Source of the DNA: Desulfobulbaceae bacterium
GTDB taxonomy: Bacteria; Desulfobacterota; Desulfobulbia; Desulfobulbales; Desulfocapsaceae
Length of the DNA: 64,000 bases
Direction: 5' to 3'
Assembly: GCA_024636345.1 (NCBI GenBank)
Contig: JAGXHG010000026.1
Location: 49,918-113,917, forward strand
The notes beneath the pieces were generated by a model, which was not told the DNA's origin, made no database searches, and saw nothing but the letters and a program-made list of their open reading frames with translations. Shown here piece after piece: positions 28,372 through 43,557 of the stretch; within the stretch, counting starts at the first letter, position 1, and each line of letters opens with the position of its first letter. Position numbers and translations under genes: made by a program.

Positions 28372-28804
28372 TCACACGTCCATCCAGGTATATAGTAAAG
28401 AAAAGCACCGCCATCCCTGTTCGTGTTTTGATCTATTTATGACCACCCTCCAAACAAGAATCATTAGTAACTCTTGCCTGGTATTAGTGCCTAAAAAAAA
28501 TGAGAACTATTTTTGACATTCATCCAAATTTAACATAAAATTCAATTGTAGAATAATTTTTTCGGCTTTTTTTATCTTGATGGGTGGATTGTTTTAACTG
28601 CATTATTTGCCGCAGAATGAACAATCATAACAATGGAGGGGCCTGATGTCTGCGAATCAAAACAAAACTGTTGATTGGAACGCGCCGGTCTTCAATCGTA
28701 AGCACAGTGCCTCTTCGGCTGTGTTTATCCTGGCTTTCTTTCCTGGCTCTTCGAACTTTATTTTACGCGTAATCTCAGACTGCAAAGATGTGTGGAGGAG
28801 AATT

Positions 28805-34704: not shown

Positions 34705-35934
34705 ATGAATAGCATACTCAAATATTCAATCATGGCCGTATCTGTGGGCAGCTTCCTGTCCATGATGTCGGTGTTTCCGGCAAACGCTGGAGTTTCCGTG
34801 CAATGTCCAGGCGATACAGATGGATCCGCAACGTGGACGGGTTCAGAAGTTCAGCCCCCCAACACCAAGTGCATGCATCTTGGCGCAGGGGATGGTTTCA
34901 TCACCATGGCCGATGGCTTGTCCCAGTATATTTTCGGTTTTTCAAACCTGACCGGCCTGGTAACCAGGCCGGTGTTTCCGGCCCCTGCCGATGACGTCAT
35001 GATGGCAGGCATGCTGGGGGCAAGCTTTCCGGCACCTCCTATCGTACTCGATGAAGGTGACGAATTCTATCTGACCCTTACCAATGTAGGCATGGCGGTC
35101 CGTCCCGATCTCTTTGATCCGCACACCGTTCATTACCACGGCTTTCCCCAGGCTGCGCCTATTTTTGACGGCGTCCCGGACTCCTCGATTTCGATCAACA
35201 TGGGTTCCAGCCTGACCTATTATTACAAGATTAATGATCCGGGAACGTACATGTATCATTGTCATGTCGAAGCCGCCGAACACATGCAGATGGGCATGGT
35301 GGGCAATCTCTATGTGCGGCCAGCCCAGGACGGAACCACCAAAATTTACGGCGGTAAGACTTATACCCGGTTTGCCTACAATGACGGTGACGGTTCAACC
35401 GGCTACGACGTGGATTACCCGATCCAGATCGGATCCTTTGATTCCGCCTTTCACAATGCAAGTGAAGCAGTACAGCCCCTGCCCTTCGCCCTGATGGTGG
35501 ATAACTACCCCATGCTCAATGGCAGAGGGTATCCGGATACAGTTAACCCCGCGTCGCTTCCGGCACCCGCAGAAAACGGCGGCAAGGTTTCCCAGAAGGA
35601 GAGTTCCCTGGTCACTGCCGATCGGGGGCAACGGGTACTGCTGCGCATTTCCAACCTGAATGTTACCCGGTTTTATACTTTGGGATCCATGGGCATATCG
35701 ATGAATGTGATTGGCAAGGATGCGAAGCTGTTGCGGGGTCCAGATGGTAAGAACCTCTATTACAAGACAAACTCAGTCACGCTCGGAGGAGGTCAGTCTG
35801 TTGATGCTATCATTGATATCCCTGCAGATGCGATTTCTGGGAGGAGATACTTCCTCTATACGACCAATCTGAACTATCTGAGCAACGACACAGAACCGTT
35901 CGGCGGGATGATGACTGAAATCAGAGTCAACTGA
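34705..35934 (+). CDS. Multicopper-oxidase-like cupredoxin protein with HYHG and HCHxxxxxH copper motifs
   Basis: Signal peptide; HTVHYHGFPQ...GTYMYHCHVEAAEHMQMGMVGNLYVRP. Confidence 0.85.
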   Translation: MNSILKYSIMAVSVGSFLSMMSVFPANAGVSVQCPGDTDGSATWTGSEVQPPNTKCMHLGAGDGFITMADGLSQYIFGFSNLTGLVTRPVFPAPADDVMMAGMLGASFPAPPIVLDEGDEFYLTLTNVGMAVRPDLFDPHTVHYHGFPQAAPIFDGVPDSSISINMGSSLTYYYKINDPGTYMYHCHVEAAEHMQMGMVGNLYVRPAQDGTTKIYGGKTYTRFAYNDGDGSTGYDVDYPIQIGSFDSAFHNASEAVQPLPFALMVDNYPMLNGRGYPDTVNPASLPAPAENGGKVSQKESSLVTADRGQRVLLRISNLNVTRFYTLGSMGISMNVIGKDAKLLRGPDGKNLYYKTNSVTLGGGQSVDAIIDIPADAISGRRYFLYTTNLNYLSNDTEPFGGMMTEIRVN

Positions 35935-35949
35935 AAAAGGGAGAGCAAA

Positions 35950-37296
35950 ATGCATATGAGAGTTATCAAAACGGCGTTCCAGGTTACCGTTCTTTTTGCC
36001 GCCTTCCTACTCCTGTTGACAGTCAATGCAGGGGCGATGATTAACGGCATAACTGGAACCACCTTTAACCTGACAGCAAAAACAGGCCATATTTCAACTC
36101 CTGACGGCGGCAGCTATCTCATTTGGGGATATGCCAACGGTACCGGTCTGGCCCAGTATCCGGGTCCGACATTAATTGTAAATCAAGGTGCTCTGGTACG
36201 GGTAAAACTGACCAACAATCTAACCGTGGCTGGGGGTGGGACGCCTCCCAACGTTTCCATAGTTTTCCCCGGTCAGCAGGTCACAATTGCCTCTGCAGAC
36301 CCGGGTGTTCCCGGAATTTTGACCAAAGAAGCAGCATCGGGCAAAACAGTGACCTATCAATTTACAGCCACTAATCCCGGCACCTATACCTATTACAGCG
36401 GGACCGATTCCGCACTCCAGATCGAAATGGGATTTATGGGAACAATTATCGTCCGGCCCACTAAAGGAGCCAATTTCGCGTATAACCATCAGGACGCCAA
36501 GTTTGATAGGGAGACCCTTTTCCTGCTCACCGAAATGGATCCAAGAATTCACCAGGCAGTTGAAAATTTCGGACCGGCAGGGGTGGTTGGCACTGATTAT
36601 CTTGCAAACTATTTTCCTGTGCTCTGGTTCATCAACGGCCGTGCCGCTCCAGACACCATGGCTGAACCCATGGCTCCGTGGTTGCCGTACCAGCCGTATA
36701 ACTGCATGCCCATGATGCATCCGGGGGAAAAACTGCTGATGAGAGTTGTCGGCGGCGGACGCGATCTCCATCCTTTTCATCATCATGGAAGCCACGCACG
36801 CGTCATCGCCCGCGATGGACAACTCCTCGCAAGTGCCCCGAATACAGGGCCTGATCTAAGCACCGAGGTGTTCACCATTCAGTCACAACCCGGCAGCACC
36901 ATTGACGCAATCTTCGAATGGACCGGCAAGGGACTTGGCTGGGATATTTACGGAACAGCTGCGGACGGTCCCGAATTTATCCATACCTGCAACGACACCA
37001 TTGTTGTTGATGGCTTTGATGACGCGACTCACGAATACTGTGCGGACCATGACAAGCCCTTTCCGGTCACGCTGCCTACAAACCAGGAACTGGCTTTCGG
37101 TGGATTTTATAGCGGCAGTCCGTTCCTCGGGTCACTCAATTCCCTCCCGCCTGGTCAAGGAGGACTTAATCCCAATGGGGGATATACCTACATGTGGCAC
37201 TCGCACACCGAAAAAGAGATGGTCAATTATGATATTTTTCCCGGCGGCATGATGACAATGTTGCTTATCGAAGCACCGGGTGTCCCGATAAATTAA
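35950..37296 (+). CDS. Multicopper-oxidase-like cupredoxin protein with HPFHHHG and WHSH motifs
   Basis: Signal peptide; RDLHPFHHHGSHARV...GGYTYMWHSHTEKEMVNYDIFPGGMMTMLL. Confidence 0.85.
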   Translation: MHMRVIKTAFQVTVLFAAFLLLLTVNAGAMINGITGTTFNLTAKTGHISTPDGGSYLIWGYANGTGLAQYPGPTLIVNQGALVRVKLTNNLTVAGGGTPPNVSIVFPGQQVTIASADPGVPGILTKEAASGKTVTYQFTATNPGTYTYYSGTDSALQIEMGFMGTIIVRPTKGANFAYNHQDAKFDRETLFLLTEMDPRIHQAVENFGPAGVVGTDYLANYFPVLWFINGRAAPDTMAEPMAPWLPYQPYNCMPMMHPGEKLLMRVVGGGRDLHPFHHHGSHARVIARDGQLLASAPNTGPDLSTEVFTIQSQPGSTIDAIFEWTGKGLGWDIYGTAADGPEFIHTCNDTIVVDGFDDATHEYCADHDKPFPVTLPTNQELAFGGFYSGSPFLGSLNSLPPGQGGLNPNGGYTYMWHSHTEKEMVNYDIFPGGMMTMLLIEAPGVPIN

Positions 37297-38346: not shown

Positions 38347-38811
38347 ATGGCTGGACAAAATAACACCAGACAATTTTTCTCATCAACGCGGATTCTTTCA
38401 GGATTGGTAGTGTGGGGGTTGTTCTTTCTCATGACGGCCTGTGTCGCAGTTGATTCAGGCACAAGGAGCGTTAATAAAGGAATAAATGAACAATGGGGTA
38501 TTGAAATCACCAGCCTGCGTATGTCTGCGGGGGGGCATATGATTGATTTCCGCTACCGCGTGCTGGATGCCGAAAAAGCCAAACCACTGTTTACACGTGC
38601 AAACAAACCGTATCTGATCGATGAAGCCAGCCAAAAAGTCCTTTCCGTCCCCACAACGGCAAAGATCGGGCCGCTGCGGACAACGGGTGACAGCAAGGAA
38701 GGACGCATATACTGGATGTTTTTTGCCAATGGTAATGGATTGGTCAAGGCCGGCAGCAAAGTGACGGTGGTTATAGGCGATTTCCGAGCGGAAAATCTGG
38801 TTGTCCAGTAG
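38347..38811 (+). CDS. Putative lipoprotein of unknown function
   Basis: GLFFLMTACVAVD lipobox-like N-terminus. Confidence 0.6.
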   Translation: MAGQNNTRQFFSSTRILSGLVVWGLFFLMTACVAVDSGTRSVNKGINEQWGIEITSLRMSAGGHMIDFRYRVLDAEKAKPLFTRANKPYLIDEASQKVLSVPTTAKIGPLRTTGDSKEGRIYWMFFANGNGLVKAGSKVTVVIGDFRAENLVVQ

Positions 38812-38930: not shown

Positions 38931-40346
38931 ATGATAAAAAAATGGATAATCACTGCAGGCTTGGTTGTTATTGCCGCTGCCGTATCGACCTCACACGGAG
39001 GCACCATTTCGCCTGACCTCCTGCTCCGACTCGCGAGCTTCAATCCTGATGAGGAAATTTCGGTCATTGTCACCCTGACCGATCAGCAGGATCTCCAACA
39101 GTTTACGGGCAGGGATAAAAAGTTTCGCAGGTCGAAAATCGCCAGTGCCCTGCGCGACAAGGCTGATAAAACCCAGAAGCCCCTGCGGGAATTTTTACGG
39201 AAAAAGAAGGTACGAAAAATCACTCCGTTCTGGATATTTAACGGGATAGCGGTAACCCTCCGGGCGGATCAGGTGAGCGAACTTGCAGGGCGGCCGGAAG
39301 TCAGCAGTCTTCGCCTCGACGGTATCCTGACTCTTCCGCCACCCTCTCCGGCCACTGCCGGAGAACCCGAATGGAATCTCAACGCCATCCATGCCCCCGC
39401 CCTCTGGACCCTTGGCTATACTGGCACCGGGGTTGTCGTTGCCAGCATGGATACCGGAGTCGATTATCTTCACCCGGATATCGGGCCAAAATGGCGCGGC
39501 GGTGCAAACAGCTGGTACGACCCGAACGGTGAACATGCCGTCCCCTATGACCGCGACGGGCATGGAACTGGGGTTATGGGGGTCATGGTCGGGGGAGACG
39601 CAGGCGGAACCTCGATCGGTGTAGCGCCCGGTGCCGTCTGGATTGCGGCAAAGATCTATAATGATGCCGGTACCACTTCGGAAAGTATTATCCACCTGGG
39701 ATTCCAATGGCTGCTTGATCCGGACGGGAACCCTGAGACCGATGATCTGCCGGATGTGGTGAATCTATCATGGGGTATGGAAGACCGTGTCGATAAGTGT
39801 GATCTCATTGATCTCGTGTATCAGCCGGACATCCAGGTCTTGAAATCCGCGGAAGTAGCGGTGGTCGTTTCGGCCGGCAATTCCGGCCCGGCACCTGCAA
39901 CGAGCATAAGCCCGGCTAACTATCCGGAAAGCTTTGCCGTGGGGAGCGTTGATGAAACACTTCAAGTTGCCTTTTCCAGCAGCCGCGGTCCCTCCGCCTG
40001 TGATGGCTCTCTATTTCCCGAAATCGTCGCGCCTGGGGTCAATATCCGGCTGGCAGATCAGACTTTTGGCGGAACCATTCTTAATTCATACGTTTATCTC
40101 TCCGGCACCTCCTTCGCCGCACCCCATGTTGCCGGAGCCATGGCGTTGCTGCTCAGCGTAAACCCGCAGCTTACCGTTGCTGAACTCGAAGCTGCGCTTA
40201 TACAGTCCGCTGTCGACAGGGGAGATCCAGGAGCAGACAATGCCTATGGCTACGGACTGCTCGATGTCGCGGCTGCGTCTCATCTGTTCACTCCCTTCCC
40301 GTGGAGTTTATTTGTGCCTGCTATTACAGGCCGGCATAAGCAATAA
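38931..40346 (+). CDS. S8 family (subtilisin-like) serine protease, secreted
   Basis: VVVASMDTGVDYLHPDI (Asp), DGHGTGVMGVM (His), GTSFAAPHVAGAMALLLS (Ser). Confidence 0.9.
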   Translation: MIKKWIITAGLVVIAAAVSTSHGGTISPDLLLRLASFNPDEEISVIVTLTDQQDLQQFTGRDKKFRRSKIASALRDKADKTQKPLREFLRKKKVRKITPFWIFNGIAVTLRADQVSELAGRPEVSSLRLDGILTLPPPSPATAGEPEWNLNAIHAPALWTLGYTGTGVVVASMDTGVDYLHPDIGPKWRGGANSWYDPNGEHAVPYDRDGHGTGVMGVMVGGDAGGTSIGVAPGAVWIAAKIYNDAGTTSESIIHLGFQWLLDPDGNPETDDLPDVVNLSWGMEDRVDKCDLIDLVYQPDIQVLKSAEVAVVVSAGNSGPAPATSISPANYPESFAVGSVDETLQVAFSSSRGPSACDGSLFPEIVAPGVNIRLADQTFGGTILNSYVYLSGTSFAAPHVAGAMALLLSVNPQLTVAELEAALIQSAVDRGDPGADNAYGYGLLDVAAASHLFTPFPWSLFVPAITGRHKQ

Positions 40347-40518: not shown

Positions 40519-42102
40519 ATGAAAACAACACACTTTTTTTTGCACATATTCTTTCAAAAATTCATTCTGTTGCTGACGGTTCTCATCGGAGCTACCCTGC
40601 TCCTCTCTCCTTCCACAGTTCATGCCGCAGACGGTGATTTTGTCTGGGCAAAAGGGATGGGGGGGGATGGAAATGATGGGGGAAACGACATCTTTGTGGA
40701 TGCTGCCGGCAACGTCTACACCACCGGTTACTTTCAGAACACCGTCGACTTTGACCCGAGTGTAGCAGGGATATTCAACCTGACCAGCGCCGGGAGCAGT
40801 GATATCTTCGTCACCAAGCTGAACAGCAGCGGCAACCTTGTCTGGGCCAAACGCATCGGCGGGGGCTCTTCTGATGAAGGATGGGGGATCGTTGCGGATT
40901 CTGCGGGCAACGTCTACATCACCGGCTACTTCGTAGGCAATAATGTCGACTTTGACCCGAGTACAACAGGGACGTTCAACCTGACCAACAATGGCAGCTC
41001 CGACATCTTCATCAGTAAGCTGGACAGCAGCGGCAACTTTGTCGGGGCCTGGGCCATGGGCGGCAATGCGGCAGATTATGGCTATGGCATCTTCGTGGAT
41101 TCCACCGGCAATATCTACACCACCGGCTATTTTGAAAACACGGCTGATTTTGACCCGGGAGCAGGGACGTTCTACCTGGACAGCGCCACTGTGGGTGTTC
41201 AGGACATCTTCATCAGCAAGCTGGACAGCAGCGGCAACTTTGTCTGGGCCAAAGGTATTGGCGGGACAGGAGCCGATGTCGGGCTGGGTATATCCCTCCT
41301 TTCTACCGGCAACGTCTATATCACCGGCTGGTTCCAGGGTACGGTCGACTTTGACCCGGGTATAGGAGCTACCAACCTGATCAGCAGCAATGGCAGCCCT
41401 GACATCTTTGTCAGCAAGCTTAACAGTAACGGCGACTTTGTCTGGGCCAGAGCCATGGGAGGCACATCCTTGGATCAAGGAGAAGCTGTCTCAGTCGATT
41501 CATTAGGAAACGTTTATACCACCGGCTTTTTCAACGGTATAGCCGACTTTGACCCGGGAGCAGGGACGACGTTCAACCTGACCAGCACAGGGGGAGCTTC
41601 CGATATCTTTATCAGCAAACTGGACAGTGGCGGCAACTTTGTCTGGGCCAGGGCTATGGGCGGGCCTTATTCAGGCGATGTCGGATACGGCATCGCCATA
41701 GATGCCTCCGGTAACGTCTACACCACTGGCGGGTTCAGTGACACTGTCGACTTTGACCCGGGAGCAGGAACATTCAACCTGACCAGCGCCGGGGTTGAGG
41801 ATATCTTTATCAGCAAGCTGAACAGTAGCGGCAGCTTTGTCTGGGCCAAGGCCATGGGCGGGCCTTCAACCGATTATGGATACGACATCGCCGTTTCTCC
41901 CACTGGCGCCGTCCATACCACCGGCTACTTTCAGGGCACTGCCGACTTTGATCCCGGCCCCGGGACGTTCAACCTTGACAGCGCCGGTTTTCAGGATATC
42001 TTTATCAGCAAGCTGGCCGGGCCTGATCCCGCCATCGATACCGCCTTTCCCTGGGCGATGTTCCTGCCGGCTATCATAGGAAAAGCCCGGACGCAACCCT
42101 AA
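40519..42102 (+). CDS. SBBP (beta-propeller) repeat secreted protein
   Basis: Repeats of FVWAKxMGG...GNVYTTGYFxxTVDFDPGxGTFNLTSAG..DIFISKLDSSG. Confidence 0.85.
   Translation: MKTTHFFLHIFFQKFILLLTVLIGATLLLSPSTVHAADGDFVWAKGMGGDGNDGGNDIFVDAAGNVYTTGYFQNTVDFDPSVAGIFNLTSAGSSDIFVTKLNSSGNLVWAKRIGGGSSDEGWGIVADSAGNVYITGYFVGNNVDFDPSTTGTFNLTNNGSSDIFISKLDSSGNFVGAWAMGGNAADYGYGIFVDSTGNIYTTGYFENTADFDPGAGTFYLDSATVGVQDIFISKLDSSGNFVWAKGIGGTGADVGLGISLLSTGNVYITGWFQGTVDFDPGIGATNLISSNGSPDIFVSKLNSNGDFVWARAMGGTSLDQGEAVSVDSLGNVYTTGFFNGIADFDPGAGTTFNLTSTGGASDIFISKLDSGGNFVWARAMGGPYSGDVGYGIAIDASGNVYTTGGFSDTVDFDPGAGTFNLTSAGVEDIFISKLNSSGSFVWAKAMGGPSTDYGYDIAVSPTGAVHTTGYFQGTADFDPGPGTFNLDSAGFQDIFISKLAGPDPAIDTAFPWAMFLPAIIGKARTQP
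40637..42018 (+). repeat. About seven in-frame tandem repeats (~50-57 codons each) in the SBBP gene
   Basis: gtctgggccaa..atggg / gactttgacccg / atcttcatcagcaagctg recur. Confidence 0.8.
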
Positions 42103-42168: not shown

Positions 42169-43557
42169 CTATCGTCCCTTCTTGATCCCGTACTTTTTCA
42201 TCTTGTACTGGAGCAGACTTTTGGTGATCCCCAATTTCTCTGCCGCTCGTGCCTGGACAAAGCCAGAGGCATCCAAGGCCCGGTTTAACATCTTTTCCTC
42301 CACCGCATAGAGAACCTCATTGAGCTCCACCGTATCCGGGATCAACTGAGCAAGATCCATGGCATGCGTCCAGGCGGCCTGCGGGCTTCTGGCCGTTGAT
42401 TCCGGCTGCACGTCTTCTGCCTCAATCTTGTTGTTATTACAAAGGATTGCCGCCCGTTCAATGGTGTTTTCCAGCTCACGCACATTCCCCTCCCAAGGCA
42501 GGGTTACCAGAAGACGTAAGGCATCAGGACTGATGGAAAGTCCGGGCTTGGCCAGACGTTCAGAAACCGTCCTGATAAAATATTCAACCAGGATCGGGAT
42601 ATCATCCATCCGCTCCCGCAAGGGCGGCAACAGGACATGGATCACATTGAGTCGATAATAAAGATCCTCACGAAAACGGCCCTGATCCACCTCTTCCTTG
42701 AGATCTTTATTGGTGGCGCTGATTATCCGGACATCAACGGATAACGTCTTACTCCCACCAACCCGCTCAAAACTCTTTTCCTGCAAAGACCGGAGCAATT
42801 TGGACTGCAAGGACAACGGGATCTCACCGATCTCATCGAGAAACAGAGTCCCGCCGTCTGCCAGTTCAAAACGGCCCTTGCGCATGGCCACGGCCCCGGT
42901 AAAGGCCCCCTTTTCATGGCCGAAGAGTTCGCTCTCCAGCAGGTTTTCAGCCAGGGCCGCACAGTTTACGGTAATGAAGGCCTTATCTTGACGGGGACTA
43001 TTCACATGGATAGCCTTGGCCACCAGTTCCTTGCCTGTTCCACTCTCACCGGTAATAAGCACCGACGATGGGGTCGGCGCCACTTTTTCAATCAGCTCAT
43101 AGACCTGAACCATGCGCGCATTTTTTCCGACCATACCGGCAAAACCGGTACGCGTCAGGATCTCCTTGCGCAATCGGATGTTTTCCCTAATCAGTGAATA
43201 GTGCTGAACCGCCTTATTAATGGTGATAATCAGCTCATCATTGGAAAAGGGTTTGGCCAGATAATTGAATGCCCCTGCCTGCATGGCAGCCACGGCCTTA
43301 TCCACCTGAGCAAAAGCGGTGATCATCACCACCGGCAGGTCACCATTGATCTTTTTAATGGCCTGAAGAAGCTGAAGACCATCCATGCCCGGCATCTGCA
43401 TATCGGTAATCACCATATCCAGATCCACGTTCTGAACAATTGTCAGGCCCTCGGCACCTCCCGGGGCGGTAAAGATCTCAAAGCCCTCATCGCGCAGCAG
43501 CTCAGAAAGGATCACCAGATAGTTCGGTTCATCATCAACAATCAGTATGGAATACAT
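42169..43557 (-). CDS. Sigma-54-dependent NtrC-family response regulator
   Basis: Receiver [17 protein letters not shown]+ [22 protein letters not shown]-terminal Fis-type HTH. Confidence 0.93.

Follow-up and report, generated by a model that had tools for sequence, protein, structure and literature searches.

A candidate heterotrimeric multicopper oxidase with its copper ligands divided between separate genes in Desulfobulbaceae

How can the copper-binding motifs of a multicopper oxidase (MCO) be divided between two genes, and could the products of such genes build one common active site? The question is raised by two adjacent open reading frames (ORFs), here P1 and P2, in a 64,000-nucleotide stretch of a Desulfobulbaceae genome (the window, that is, the whole stretch of DNA that was analysed). 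A sequence-only reading of the window had placed four copper motifs on these two ORFs and proposed that their products may join in a heteromer, the trinuclear site lying at the interface and type-1 copper in domain 1 of P1. The positions of both ORFs and of all four motifs were exact to the base (Table 1), and the proposed heteromer gains support from the co-occurrence and adjacency of the genes, the invariance of their complementary ligands, the existence of a one-gene relative and a confidently predicted joint fold. A third MCO-like gene, P3, had been overlooked. We put the probability at roughly three in four that P1, P2 and P3 form a heterotrimeric extracellular MCO whose only trinuclear site lies where domain 1 of P1 meets domain 2 of P2. 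In the open-access literature, our searches turned up neither a comparable split or heteromeric MCO nor one in which two different gene products build the trinuclear site.

Pfam searches and profile alignments identified two cupredoxin domains in each of P1, P2 and P3, and each of the three proteins has a separate signal peptide. The family Cu-oxidase_3 matched both P1 and P2 (E ~3e-15 for both), and Cu-oxidase matched P1 (1e-6). Domain 1 of P1 contains the type-1 copper site together with half of the trinuclear ligand set, and its domain 2 is free of copper ligands. In motif I, whose HYHG is found at 35131-35142 (H143-G146 of the ORF translation), H143 and H145 are trinuclear ligands and H140 is a type-1 ligand by homology; in motif II, H185 and H187 are type-3 ligands and C186, H193 and M198 are type-1 ligands. 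Neither HPxHxHG nor HSH was found in the P1 translation. The other trinuclear half is located in domain 2 of P2, where H277 and H279 of motif III are trinuclear ligands, H417 and H419 of motif IV (WHSH, 37195-37206, W416-H419 of the ORF translation) are type-3 ligands, and the position of the type-1 Cys is taken by serine. Domain 1 of P2 is degenerate, with NVSIVFPG and YYSGT where HxHG and HCH would stand; neither of these domain-1 motifs was found in the P2 translation, the HHHG within HPFHHHG being motif III itself. The full ligand set of the MCO superfamily, 10 His and 1 Cys (the eight trinuclear His plus H140, H193 and C186), is present across P1 and P2, and P3 is without copper ligands.

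Table 1 Positions of the trio, its motifs and the neighbouring features in the window, and of the one-gene relatives.
Feature	Position	Strand	Basis or remark
Possible sigma-70-like promoter 5' of P4, TTGACA-17-TAAAAT, 11/12	28513..28541	+	consensus scan only
P4, giant surface protein, 2014 aa	28646..34690	+	SdrD_B, beta-helix (Pfam), C-terminal TM segment
P1, secreted two-domain cupredoxin protein, 409 aa	34705..35934	+	ORF, translation, Pfam
P1 motif I, HTVHYHG	35122..35142	+	ligand invariance; alignment to 3g5w HTIHWHG
P1 motif II, YHCHVEAAEHMQMGM (Y184-M198)	35254..35298	+	ligand invariance; alignment to 3g5w YHCHVNVNEHVTMRGM
P2, secreted two-domain cupredoxin protein, 448 aa	35950..37296	+	ORF, translation, Pfam, profile alignment
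P2 motif III, HPFHHHG (H274-G280)	36769..36789	+	H274, H277, H279 invariant
P2 motif IV, WHSHTEKE	37195..37218	+	ligand invariance
P3, third secreted two-domain MCO paralogue, 333 aa	37315..38316	+	Pfam, profile match
P5, small putative lipoprotein (LFFLMTAC)	38347..38811	+	matches no Pfam family
S8, secreted subtilase	38931..40346	+	Peptidase_S8 5e-55
SBBP beta-propeller-repeat protein	40519..42102	+	adjoins block in close relatives only; membership uncertain
One-gene type-C two-domain MCO, Planctomycetota	L163:7992-9215, L164:693-1856		distant relative of all three subunits; outgroup

Complete trios were observed in 43 of the 47 loci inspected, with the three genes on one strand in all 43. 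These trios came from Desulfobacterota, Nitrospirota, Planctomycetota and Bacteroidota, mostly as metagenome-assembled genomes, and their identities to the window proteins went down to a minimum of 38-39%. When they were aligned, all 13 ligands (P1 H140, H143, H145, H185, C186, H187, H193 and M198; P2 H274, H277, H279, H417 and H419) were invariant. The two motif halves are not a product of chance, because of this invariance and the Pfam E-values of both proteins. Invariant in the 43 trios were also the acidic residues beside the motifs, P1 D155 and E189 and P2 E421 and E423, of which D155, E189 and E421 stand at places where MCOs have proton-relay acids. The first His of HPFHHHG, P2 H274 (36769-36771), corresponds to a type-1 ligand position in a normal MCO and was invariant although P2 is without the type-1 Cys.

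The two genes were also found to occur together. In independent searches, P1 and P2 were present in the identical 16 of 258 genomes of the class (Fisher p 9e-26) and in the identical 12 of 198 Nitrospirota genomes (Fisher p 2e-19), they were adjacent wherever both were found, and their distances across the aligned trios were correlated (r=0.875). Among the Planctomycetota, some P1 matches were without P2; two of these represent a one-gene relative, and one stops at a contig end. The sequence-only reading had anticipated that neither protein would mostly be found without the other and that no homologue would hold all four motifs, and both expectations agree with the shared genomes and with the P1 and P2 families, in which no member has all four. 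No intact P1 or P2 carrying the motifs of its partner and no single-chain six-domain homologue was seen among the inspected loci, and the occasional P1::P2 gene fusion that had been sought did not appear in any of the 47. Searches for P2 covered relatives, the class, the phylum and an all-species collection, and its named matches were metagenome-assembled genomes of Desulfobulbaceae, Desulfobacteraceae, Nitrospirae, Planctomycetes and Bacteroidales. The search of relatives found P2 in no further genome of the genus to which the window belongs, which suggests a block that is mobile or often lost.

To place P3, we compared the three families by profiles. The matches span both domains (P1-P2, E=1e-32; P2-P3, E=9e-56; P1-P3, E=2e-26), and by these comparisons P1, P2 and P3 are full-length paralogues. 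In register, HTVHYHG of P1 stands against NVSIVFPG in P2 and PVSIVIPG in P3, YHCHVEAAEHMQMGM of P1 stands against YYSGTDSALQIEMGF in P2 and YQSGSNPAKQVHMGL in P3, and HPFHHHG and WHSH of P2 are opposite ligand-free sequence of P1 and P3. This alignment indicates that the domain-1 half was kept by P1, the domain-2 half by P2, and neither by P3. In the one-gene relatives from Planctomycetota (L163 and L164), both motif halves (PHTIHFHG, YHCHVDSASHILLGM, LHPHAYH and IMHDHN) are included in one two-domain polypeptide, 407 aa long in one relative. A quick tree rooted on these relatives recovered P1, P2 and P3 each as one group, with P2 and P3 as sisters and with the identical loci splitting off first in all three families. 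It is likely that a type-C two-domain oxidase, forming a homotrimer with trinuclear sites between its subunits, was duplicated twice and that the copies, among which its sites were shared out, became a heterotrimer with one active site; this division would have preceded the spread of the family across phyla.

Two-domain MCOs are trimers in which the trinuclear site lies between domain 1 and the domain 2 of a neighbour, and in type C the type-1 site is in domain 1 (PMC13151041). This is just the interface that the complementary P1 and P2 halves would suit, and the presence of a third subunit favours a heterotrimer over a heterodimer. In the proposed enzyme, type-1 copper in domain 1 of P1 (H140, C186, H193, M198) would be reduced by the substrate, and C186 would hand the electrons on to the type-3 pair ligands H185 and H187. 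The trinuclear site would take HxH and HCH from domain 1 of P1 and HxH and HSH from domain 2 of P2, and there, with P2 H277, H279, H417 and H419 completing the site, O2 would be converted to water. The interfaces between P1 domain 2 and P3 domain 1 and between P3 domain 2 and P2 domain 1 would have lost copper and be structural, by analogy with ceruloplasmin. We observed the genes with their motifs, conservation, co-occurrence, paralogy and fusions, and we infer the complex itself, its 1:1:1 make-up, ring order, copper content and activity. As to the substrate, a metal (Mn(II), Fe(II) or Cu(I)) or phenols would be our guesses. Contact with O2 is plausible, because the host genome encodes cytochrome bd.

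Structure prediction was performed on P1 and P2, which share one frame, as an artificial single chain in AlphaFold (stop read as Gly; 56 rows). The resulting model had a pLDDT of 87.9 and a pTM of 0.88 with a disordered 34-residue linker, and the mutual placement of P1 and P2 is confidently predicted. For the fused trio the pTM was 0.69. Its best 18 PDB matches were all six-domain MCO relatives (factor V, factor VIII, ceruloplasmin and MnxG) by local alignment only, and the global TM-scores to six-domain structures were low (0.2-0.3), with Foldseek aligning domains in chain order and the expected ring order being P2-P1-P3. Thermus laccase 2xu9 matched the fused trio with a TM of 0.70 over 767 columns, which was not repeated with the second model; in this match, laccase domain 3 probably falls on domain 2 of P2, as would fit the trinuclear interface, and we give it little weight. 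The best solved-structure match of P1, in domain 1, was the two-domain MCO 3g5w (E=7e-24), whose chain holds both motif halves in the alignment.

The best-surviving alternative is that P1 and P2 share the trinuclear site as a heterodimer or as (P1-P2)n and that P3 is an MCO-derived anchor or matrix protein, which we consider unlikely. Such a role would agree with a P3 that is without copper ligands, evolves fastest of the three (10 invariant positions against 43 and 40 in the other two subunits) and bears Ig or cadherin repeats or a fusion to P4, and the P1-P2 chain folds without P3 at the higher pTM of the two models. However, P3 has kept two domains in the same arrangement and directly follows P2 nearly everywhere, two-domain MCOs form trimers, of which a P1-P2 pair would leave two interfaces unfilled, and the lower pTM of the trio may stem from the shallower alignment of P3.

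It is very improbable that P1 and P2 act separately, with P1 carrying electrons on type-1 copper and P2 in a copper-binding or structural role, and that neither is an oxidase. Each of them is indeed without half of the trinuclear ligands, but invariance of H143, H145, H185 and H187 would be unnecessary in an electron carrier, as would that of H277, H279, H417 and H419 in a separately acting P2, and the exact co-occurrence of the two and the one-gene relative with both halves also argue against it. We give slightly less credence still to an enzyme that does not use O2, such as one resembling copper nitrite reductase, built on the common scaffold, although copper nitrite reductases do match domain 1 of P1 and domain 1 of P2. 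Nitrite reductases have a three-His type-2 site and are without the second His of HxH and HCH, whereas here all eight His are invariant and P1 matches a two-domain MCO best. That stop codons from decay or sequencing error have broken a single-chain oxidase is ruled out even though the ORFs starting at 34705, 35950 and 37315 share one frame, since separate starts and signal peptides were seen for all three, their frames are not the same in most other loci, and across several phyla 43 trios conserve the split.

Comparisons with known systems further place the proposed heterotrimer. The type-C two-domain MCOs, such as 3g5w of Nitrosomonas europaea and the metagenome laccase 2zwn, have two cupredoxin domains per subunit, as here, and their trinuclear site is expected between domain 1 and the domain 2 of another subunit, as proposed here. 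Their type-1 copper is in domain 1 beside HxHG and HCH, as in P1, and the HSH of P2 is without the Cys. However, type-C enzymes have one gene, both halves in each polypeptide and three equal sites in a homotrimer, whereas here three diverged genes would yield one complete site; instead of all four trinuclear motifs, every intact P1 and P2 has half. Ceruloplasmin, hephaestin and factors V and VIII consist of three two-domain units with presumably one active trinuclear interface and the others degenerate, an arrangement that the ligand pattern of the trio appears to fit. In that group the six domains form one chain, whereas here there are three polypeptides with separate signal peptides. Type-1 sites of the six-domain blue proteins are in domains 2, 4 and 6 (PMC3600357), unlike the single type-1 site of the trio, which is in the first domain. 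By analogy, the trio would work like type-C MCOs and ceruloplasmin and fails one defining feature of each. On balance we lean towards an obligate heterotrimer that is an unfused counterpart of ceruloplasmin, held at the surface by a giant beta-helix protein, in anaerobe-rich lineages.

Other multi-gene or multidomain oxidases differ in where the motifs reside. The Bacillus manganese oxidase MnxEFG is a multi-gene extracellular MCO complex, and its six-domain MnxG is among the fold matches (9bxa); there MnxG alone is the MCO, whereas here the MCO itself is divided. A MnxG-type protein was rejected as an identification of the trio, as MnxG was absent from the best 60 sequence matches and appeared only by fold. 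The iodide oxidase is a bacterial extracellular oxidase of which two proteins from one gene cluster, IoxA and IoxC, were co-purified. By itself, IoxA contains the four copper-binding regions (PMC9415286), a set that is not complete in any P1 or P2. Three-domain laccases, CueO and CopA have the identical four motifs, and the same chemistry would be expected, but they are one chain with type-1 copper in domain 3. The host genome also encodes an MCO of this three-domain type (L041).

Origin models for ceruloplasmin and factors V and VIII lead from a trimer of two-domain subunits to a chain of three different units in which most copper sites are lost. The trio family would be that step without gene fusion, with diverged subunits and partitioned sites still in separate genes, and whether divergence and site loss came before fusion becomes testable. 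It would also show a route by which an enzyme site becomes obligately common to two gene products, and it draws attention to a surface oxidase, so far unstudied, in Desulfobacterota, Nitrospirota and Planctomycetota, lineages with no obvious need for an enzyme that uses O2.

Gene-context analysis extended the locus beyond the two ORFs of the sequence-only reading, which had also missed that the 2014-aa secreted surface protein P4 (true start perhaps at 28802) belongs to the conserved block 5' of P1. The order P4-P1-P2-P3-P5-subtilase recurs in most loci with long enough contigs; in most intact loci, P5 is located between P3 and the subtilase, and the subtilase adjoins the trio. In divergent Nitrospirota loci, one ORF of 2172-2459 aa contains P3 followed by P4, in two Planctomycetota loci the fusion places P4 ahead of P1 (2445-2685 aa), and in other loci P3 has Ig or cadherin repeats. 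These natural fusions and repeats make anchoring of the complex at the cell surface or in the matrix most likely, with P4 presumably holding the enzyme there.

Several further genes were observed at or beside the block. In a Planctomycetes metagenome-assembled genome (L034:1668-4097), the homologue of P1 is extended at its N terminus by a long stretch with a PAP2 or vanadium haloperoxidase-like match and is possibly a haloperoxidase-MCO fusion. A YHS-type metal P-type ATPase (copper-type) and a CopA-like three-domain MCO are located directly beside the block at L031:16044-20835, and a similar CopA-like MCO adjoins it in L030 and L043. A gene for a MauG or di-haem cytochrome c peroxidase was found directly downstream of the subtilase at L101:4199-5638. 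In the window, an NtrC-type sigma-54 response regulator (42169-43557) is convergent with the block, and response-regulator genes were also found near the block in several other loci.
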